38,169 nt of DNA. Source: a virus. How positions within the stretch are numbered: position 1 is the first letter of the stretch; each line of letters begins with the position of its first letter. The stretch covers positions 1 to 38,169 of IMG/VR virus record IMGVR_UViG_3300042520_001788; one strand, given 5' to 3'. The translations under genes were made by a program, and so were the position numbers. Shown piece after piece: positions 35-816 of this stretch. The notes below the pieces were generated by a model that saw only the letters and a list, made by a program, of their open reading frames with translations, did not search any database and was not told where the DNA came from.

Positions 35-248
35 TATTACCTCCTTTGATTTTATCTCTCATCCATTTAGCACCATTAATTCTATCAACAAAAATTTGAT
101 TTTCCGTTGTGAACTCTTTTTCTATTTCCTCATTACTTGGTAGTTTTATTGGGGTTAGTGAATCAATAGTATCGTCTATCCGAGATGGTATAAATGATAA
201 TTGATAAAGCAGTTTTCTAACTTGCTCTTCTGTGTATAGCTTACTCAT
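27..248 (-). CDS. Small hypothetical phage protein (73 aa)
   Basis: Not recognised. The 73-residue protein starts MSKLYTEEQVRKLL, a charged, probably helical N-terminus seen in many small phage accessory proteins, and has no cysteine motif or membrane segment. Its ATG overlaps the stop of the upstream gene in an ATGA arrangement (245-248), so translation is probably coupled to it. Position in a run of same-strand small genes suggests an early, host- or metabolism-modulating accessory function, which is inference only. Confidence 0.7.
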   Translation of the reverse strand: MSKLYTEEQVRKLLYQLSFIPSRIDDTIDSLTPIKLPSNEEIEKEFTTENQIFVDRINGAKWMRDKIKGGNNE

Positions 249-631
249 TGCTGTACAATTTTAATTGTTCCTAAAGTTCCACTTGCTAACGCAGGAGAGG
301 AATAGACATTATCCCAGTCATTGTCTTTTGCAAGTTGATACAATATTGTTCTGGTGATTTGATAGGTGTTTCCGATAAACTCGGTGCTGTTGTATCCAAA
401 ACTTTGATTATCTGCAAAGTCAGGGAGAAGAACTCTTTTAGCCTGTCTTAGTAATTCCTCAGCTTCATCACGTCTTTTCATCTGCTCTTCAAATGGCAAG
501 CCTCTCAACATTTCTTCAATGGTGCTTCTTAACTGCCATTGTCCAGCAGCAAAACGAGACACATCATCCATGCAATCTGAGATCAACCTCATTTGCTCCT
601 CTGATAGTTCAATAGTGTATTTCTTGCTCAT
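245..631 (-). CDS. Hypothetical phage protein, start reassigned to 631 (128 aa)
   Basis: Not recognised with certainty. I start it at the ATG at 631 (MSKKYTIELSEEQ) because the 16 residues of the longer frame (to 679) are Cys-rich and unlike a phage N-terminus, and would run into the structured RNA-like stretch just upstream. The sequence is mostly helical with a charged 'EEQMKRRDEAEELLRQ' segment. The pattern I-E-L-(S/T)-x-E-Q near the N-terminus recurs in small phage proteins of unknown role. The stop overlaps the next start as ATGA. It is the first gene downstream of the tRNA-like element. Confidence 0.7.
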   Translation of the reverse strand: MSKKYTIELSEEQMRLISDCMDDVSRFAAGQWQLRSTIEEMLRGLPFEEQMKRRDEAEELLRQAKRVLLPDFADNQSFGYNSTEFIGNTYQITRTILYQLAKDNDWDNVYSSPALASGTLGTIKIVQQ

Positions 632-644
632 TGTATTTAGTTTG

Positions 645-816
645 CAAGGGAGGCAGGTTATGATCCTGCACGACAACACTCACTGGAAAGGCTATAACAG
701 GTGGTCCTGCTTATACCTTAGGTAATCCTCTTATGTGTTATCTATCTTACCTCCTTAGCGTCTACCATATCATGTACATACTATTACTCTTTGTACAATC
801 ATTCCGCCACTCCCCC
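645..816 (-). ncRNA. tRNA-Leu-like element with large insertions
   Basis: On the minus strand the 5' end (816 downward) reads GGGGGAGTGGCGGAAT and, after a 33-nt interruption, TGGTAGACGC at 769-760 or so; joined, these match the acceptor and D-arm of a class II (Leu) tRNA. The 3' end has a 5-bp stem GCAGG/CCTGC with a 7-nt loop followed by CTCCC, which can pair with the 5' GGGAG, as a T-arm plus acceptor would. The T-loop (ATCATAA) lacks the usual TTCRA. The D-loop insertion contains TGTACA twice, able to form a hairpin. The middle holds AGGTAA/TTACCT and a TATAAGCAGG/CCTGTTATA-type hairpin placed like a long variable arm. Total length about 172 nt against about 85 for a normal tRNA-Leu. It may be a decayed tRNA, an interrupted tRNA, or another structured RNA; no anticodon is assigned. 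Confidence 0.4.

Follow-up and report, generated by a model that had tools for sequence, protein, structure and literature searches.

The closest known object to the element described here is species 1 RNA of bacteriophage T4 (rnaC), which together with species 2 (rnaD) belongs to the small stable RNAs of the T4 transfer RNA (tRNA) cluster. rnaC is phage-encoded, lies beside tRNA genes, is 139 nucleotides (nt) long and combines a canonical T-arm, CCGGGTTCGAATCCCGG, with a replaced middle; it is annotated without a function. Two further systems use a tRNA body in a comparable way. Transfer-messenger RNA (tmRNA) has a tRNA-like acceptor and T-arm domain in which the anticodon arm is replaced, and engineered tRNA scaffolds carry a recombinant RNA cargo in the place of the anticodon arm, with the tRNA body providing stability. 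Here, we analyze a tRNA-like element on the minus strand (816..645) of a 38-kilobase (kb) virus record, IMG/VR IMGVR_UViG_3300042520_001788, of which positions 1 to 38,169 (38,169 nt, hereafter the window) were studied. The element belongs to an apparently undescribed and large class in viral contigs, in which a tRNA-Leu-type scaffold is kept and the anticodon arm is replaced by an interchangeable centre. We propose, with a probability of about 0.5, that it is a phage small-RNA gene on a tRNA-Leu scaffold whose swappable centre would act in trans, the window copy being a recombinant.

Results

Read directly, the window element consists of a 7-base-pair (bp) acceptor, a Leu-type D-arm, an 88-nt centre and a 5-bp T-arm. 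The 5′ acceptor strand GGGGGAG (810..816) pairs at 7/7 positions, two of them G·U, with the 3′ strand CTCCCTT (652-646), and the stem of the T-arm GCAGG-ATCATAA-CCTGC (669-653) pairs at 5/5, both in tRNA register; when the downstream stretch was shuffled 20,000 times, these 12/12 pairs were reached once. T8 and the Leu-type 5′ half of the D-arm read TGGCGGAAT (801..809), with A14 and A15, and are the same in the 58 contigs of the split-D-arm search below. The 5′ half itself, GGCGGAAT (808-801), is preceded by T8 G9 and separated from the 3′ half, TGGTAGACGC (767-758), which holds G18 G19, by a 33-nt D-loop insert, GATTGTACAAAGAGTAATAGTATGTACATGATA (800-768). The insert forms a 6-bp TGTACA/TGTACA hairpin (797-792 and 778-773) with a conserved 13-nt loop, and when it is removed the D-arm (GGCGGAAT joined to TGGTAGACGC) is of tRNA-Leu type. 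The centre (757-670), whose last base is T48, stands in place of the anticodon arm and variable loop. The discriminator is G73 (645), compared with A73 in most relatives, and no CCA is encoded; the T-loop ATCATAA departs from TTCRANY, which is met in most of the family. The preliminary description of this DNA had named the acceptor, the split D-arm with its TGTACA hairpin, the T-arm and the pairing of CTCCC with the 5′ end, and all of these were seen.

No anticodon arm (5-bp stem, 7-nt loop) was found in the window element. ARAGORN called no gene in the window at its default threshold, also in intron-permissive or tmRNA mode, and lowered thresholds gave scattered false calls only. An Rfam search of the window gave no match, RF00005 (tRNA) included, with chance small nucleolar RNA matches alone in a permissive search. 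The intron-permissive ARAGORN check proposed in the preliminary description thus does not recognize the element, and neither does Rfam.

Relatives were found by two independent searches. The first, for a Leu D-arm interrupted by 18-46 nt (GTGGCGGAATN{18,46}TGGTAGACGC), matched 58 viral contigs, nearly all with complete tRNA-like elements comprising a 7-bp acceptor, a D-loop hairpin, a consensus T-arm and a centre that is highly variable in length and sequence. When sequence alone decided the choice of T-arm, 7/7 pairing was seen in 18 of 24 distinct acceptor pairs, and the mean pairing is 6.2 of 7, versus 4.2 for re-dealt partners (maximum 5.0 in 2000). The acceptor stems covary and the D-loop hairpin is conserved; covariation among relatives was one of the checks proposed in the preliminary description. 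The second search used the 3′ end only (ACAGGTTCGAATCCTGTCCTGACTAC) and matched at least 120 contigs; among the matches listed there are 163 distinct elements in 104 contigs, which keep A14 in 154, A15 in 154 and U48 in 142 cases (140 with A15). The scanner demanded T8 and G10 in part and the search pattern contained A73/C74, and these positions are therefore not counted as evidence in this set. A canonical anticodon arm is present in 2 of these 163 elements, and most lack a D insert yet also lack an anticodon arm. Because A14, A15 and U48 are kept while the anticodon arm is gone, the tRNA core is under selection.

It is well supported by these comparisons that viral contigs carry hundreds of tRNA-like elements on one scaffold, with a covarying acceptor, Leu-type D-arm, T-arm and A15/U48. 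Across the family the acceptor stem, D-arm, T-arm, T-loop and the core positions U8, A14, A15-U48 and G18 G19 are kept. The acceptor AGTCAGG is common to many members, and some short relatives do reach RF00005. The window element has the covarying acceptor, the Leu-type D-arm, the T-arm and a modular centre without an anticodon arm, and deviates in the T-loop. In complete records, seven consecutive elements form an array among tRNA genes in G022 and five in G011, and G010 has two elements inside a 26-gene tRNA array with its own tRNA-Leu(UAA) and tRNA-Leu(UAG). Separately, a huge phage of 634,780 bases (LR745206.1) seems to carry, at about 452-575, a non-canonical tRNA-like element whose D-arm is of another type (GAGC..GCTC), which suggests that other tRNA bodies may be used likewise. 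In the viral contig L013, which also has a tRNA-like element, ARAGORN calls a tmRNA with a long tag, DNTNSRQEIGASIINMAFANANVAMAA, at 133-547.

The preliminary description had offered three readings, of which a tRNA mimic that kept its stems and lost the T-loop consensus fits best, and a functional tRNA with insertions and a decaying phage tRNA fare poorly. A functional tRNA is not supported, given the lack of a canonical anticodon arm in the window and in 161 of the 163 relatives found by their 3′ end. In the version in which real tRNA-Leu genes have spliced introns in the D-loop and anticodon loop, it accounts for the standard Leu D-loop that remains without the 33-nt insert, but no anticodon stem flanks the centre, a closing helix across centres is not above chance (38 versus 34.7 expected, with no general tail hairpin either), and no Rfam intron match was obtained. 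In addition, the ligase RtcB was not found in 17 carrier records, one of which has a CCA-adding enzyme, and carriers can have large ordinary tRNA sets. We regard spliced introns as the least probable of the explanations considered.

The 166 centres compared fall into approximately 130 sequence groups, with 25 groups of two to four members and approximately 107 unique centres. A D insert may be present or absent beside the same or a near-identical centre (L018/L104, L058/L160, L037/L144, L041/L175 and L012/L026/L052/L105), and identical or near-identical centres sit on different acceptors. On these sequences, centres and D-loop hairpins are freely combining, exchangeable modules. The 33-nt insert class has 10 distinct sequences that are 100% paired, with pair 1 changed on both sides and the loop conserved. 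One centre family is an H-type pseudoknot with three compensatory changes in the outer stem (four sequences only), and in a 117-nt family (L013, L033, L046 and L104) the loops GTAAGCGGA and AGAGAAAACCACAAATGGCAT are kept while the stems change and the D-loops differ between scaffolds; in L033 and L104 the latter family matches nothing in Rfam. When 15 centres were tested for antisense pairing with the genome of the phage that carries them, the values lay mostly inside the shuffled range; two G022 centres beat all 10 shuffles by 1-2 nt, which is not convincing.

The presence or absence of the insert beside the same centre would also be expected if the D-loop hairpin alone were a selfish palindromic insertion and the rest of the element secondary. 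However, all inserts checked occupy one D-loop position and occur nowhere else in the sequences examined, their loop is conserved and their stem covaries, and most elements have neither an insert nor an anticodon arm. A selfish hairpin is therefore improbable.

Copies of the 88-nt centre of the window with few changes are found in ten IMG/VR contigs, where they sit on two different acceptors and have varied downstream genes. Most of these relatives have the acceptor AGGGGAG/CTCCCTT (AGTCAGG/CCTGACT in L222 and L224); they have no D insert, and their T-loop is GTTATAA. In contrast, L062 has the exact D insert of the window, an AGGGGAG acceptor and a normal T-loop, but a different centre. The window copy, which shares its D-hairpin but not its centre with L062, is best seen as a recombinant of a 5′ half as in L062 and a centre as in L067. 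Its elbow would be weakened by the T-loop ATCATAA.

This off-consensus T-loop, and the true tRNA-Leu genes present in some carrier phages, could be taken as signs of decay, in which phage tRNA-Leu genes have lost their anticodon arm and acquired random insertions. Counted by eye in the sequences, the window centre differs from that of L067 at approximately 2/88 positions, compared with 4/39 fourfold-degenerate sites of the next gene, and from that of L073 at approximately 6/88, compared with 13/30. Given that the centre differs less than the fourfold sites, its free decay is argued against, clearly by L073 and weakly by L067. As acceptor stems also covary and the near-unchanged centre sits on other acceptors and other scaffolds, we consider decay very improbable, although slightly less so than spliced introns.

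The window element is followed, 13 nt after G73, by an open reading frame (ORF) of 128 amino acids on the same strand (MSKKYTIELSEEQM..., 245..631) with 27 relatives in viral contigs, some of which have the same, a different (L075, L076 and L081) or no (L072, L074 and L078) tRNA-like element upstream. A rule of one centre for one downstream gene was tried and failed. More generally, a previous stop lies at most 40 nt away from 72/225 elements, compared with 17/118 canonical tRNAs and 112/1125 random places, and a next ATG at most 40 nt away from 83/225, 33/118 and 277/1125, respectively. The leader between element and ATG is often 14-24 nt long and A-rich. This packing against ORFs, and the ATG 13 nt beyond the window element, are what would be seen if the fold served as processing punctuation or as a cis leader, letting ribonuclease (RNase) P and RNase Z cut polycistronic transcripts or shaping the 5′ leader of the next gene, with the centre as neutral filler. 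Neutral filler is not expected to form families with conserved loops and compensatory changes, to be near-identical on different scaffolds or to precede unrelated genes with the same sequence, and consecutive elements also occur within tRNA arrays. We consider punctuation the main rival and a possible explanation, although a rather unlikely one.

The portal-position protein of the window is distantly similar (21-24%) to portals of Flavobacterium and Maribacter phages, and Cellulophaga phages are also in the tally; a Bacteroidota host is likely. Two other features lie upstream of the element on the minus strand. A hairpin, CCTCG-GAAAGA-CGAGG, stands just ahead of the acceptor (822-837), and in L074, L075, L084 and L082 similar hairpins with the loop GGAAAGAC precede or follow elements or genes. 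A second conserved element of approximately 115 nt, AGCTCCGTTGGCCAGGAGATCGTAAAACACAG...CTGTTCTCATCGTATAGGAGATAGAGTTAGCC...CGTCGTTTAAAAAGGC (877-1001), is seen across phages in approximately 16 distinct contexts, some with an adjoining tRNA-like element and some lacking one; its first hairpin shows compensatory variation (CTCC/GGAG, CCCC/GGGG and CCAC/GTGG), and it has no Rfam match.

Discussion

A constant scaffold, a replaced anticodon arm, modular exchange, and selection on both scaffold and centre are evident from the contigs compared, and the evidence for the architecture is good; from it we infer the function. As the product of a small-RNA gene, the RNA would be released from its longer transcript as tRNAs are, through cleavage by RNase P and RNase Z, and would be stabilized by the tRNA elbow and by CCA addition, leaving the centre to act in trans as a displayed cargo. 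Because the hypervariability and module swapping resemble an arms race between phage and host, the cargo would most plausibly act as a decoy for, or an inhibitor of, a host factor that binds or senses RNA, a proposal that we make with low confidence. More broadly, and tentatively, phages, probably mainly of Bacteroidota, may run a natural ‘display system’ in which host tRNA enzymes process and stabilize a constant tRNA elbow, which presents rapidly swapped, trans-acting cargoes (centres and D-loop hairpins) against host defence or RNA machinery.

As free RNA, the whole stretch is only slightly more stable than shuffles in its minimum free energy fold (z = −1.8), and the tRNA cloverleaf is absent from that fold of the whole window element; the evidence for the element hence comes from homology and covariation rather than from folding energy. 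Several observations weigh against the small-RNA proposal. Many centres are singletons, their folding signal is modest (mean z = −0.93) and no closing helix is common to them. G18 G19 are missing in relatives that carry the window centre, and neither the window copy nor its closest relatives have a normal T-loop, which may prevent tRNA-like processing of these copies. A large number of elements directly precede an ORF, where a leader or processing role is possible. Expression, processing and binding of the element RNAs are predicted, and the putative anti-defence role is drawn from hypervariability and module swapping.

The anticodon is not read by bacterial leucyl-tRNA synthetase, and a Leu-type body with A73 might therefore still be charged; the window copy, with G73, may not be. 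Because short members of the class receive tRNA calls with nonsense or undetermined anticodons, and longer ones go undetected, tRNA counts in viral metagenomes are probably distorted by the class. If these RNAs are produced, the class would be a large natural collection of RNAs on tRNA scaffolds, in which cargoes are swappable and domains covary. It would then offer a testable way into the function of the T4-type ‘species’ RNAs of phage tRNA clusters, and perhaps a new source of anti-defence RNAs.

No publication on the class was found in literature searches on phage tRNA-like elements (open-access literature only), and no Rfam family was found. None of 50,697 annotated phage records matched the scaffold, and a 1.2-kb array of elements matched one 46-nt piece of a 635-kb phage in the annotated phage collection and nothing else, including no T4-like record that would indicate homology to rnaC. 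As a separate observation, the T4 rnaC query matches, over its final 27 nt and at 100%, a region annotated as tRNA-Asn in Escherichia phage AV115 (OR352945.1); the 3′ half of species 1 RNA may thus be shared with, or derived from, a tRNA-Asn gene.

Compared with known systems, the class is similar in architecture to rnaC, with a T-arm and a replaced middle within a phage tRNA array, its own stability and processing being predicted. However, the predicted acceptor of rnaC pairs only partly, it has no Leu-type D-arm, and it is a single element that keeps most of its length in approximately 700 phage records, without interchangeable centres. With class II tRNA-Leu the class shares the D-arm sequence, U8/A14, A15-U48, G18 G19, the T-arm and mostly A73, but it differs in having no anticodon arm, unrelated centres, D-loop hairpins and, in many members, the AGTCAGG acceptor. 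Unlike tmRNA it keeps a D-stem and has no recognized tag ORF, and whereas engineered tRNA scaffolds are artificial, the class is apparently natural and diversified. Phage tRNA-like stable RNAs were already known; the class is set apart from rnaC by a Leu-type D-arm, a full acceptor and interchangeable centres.
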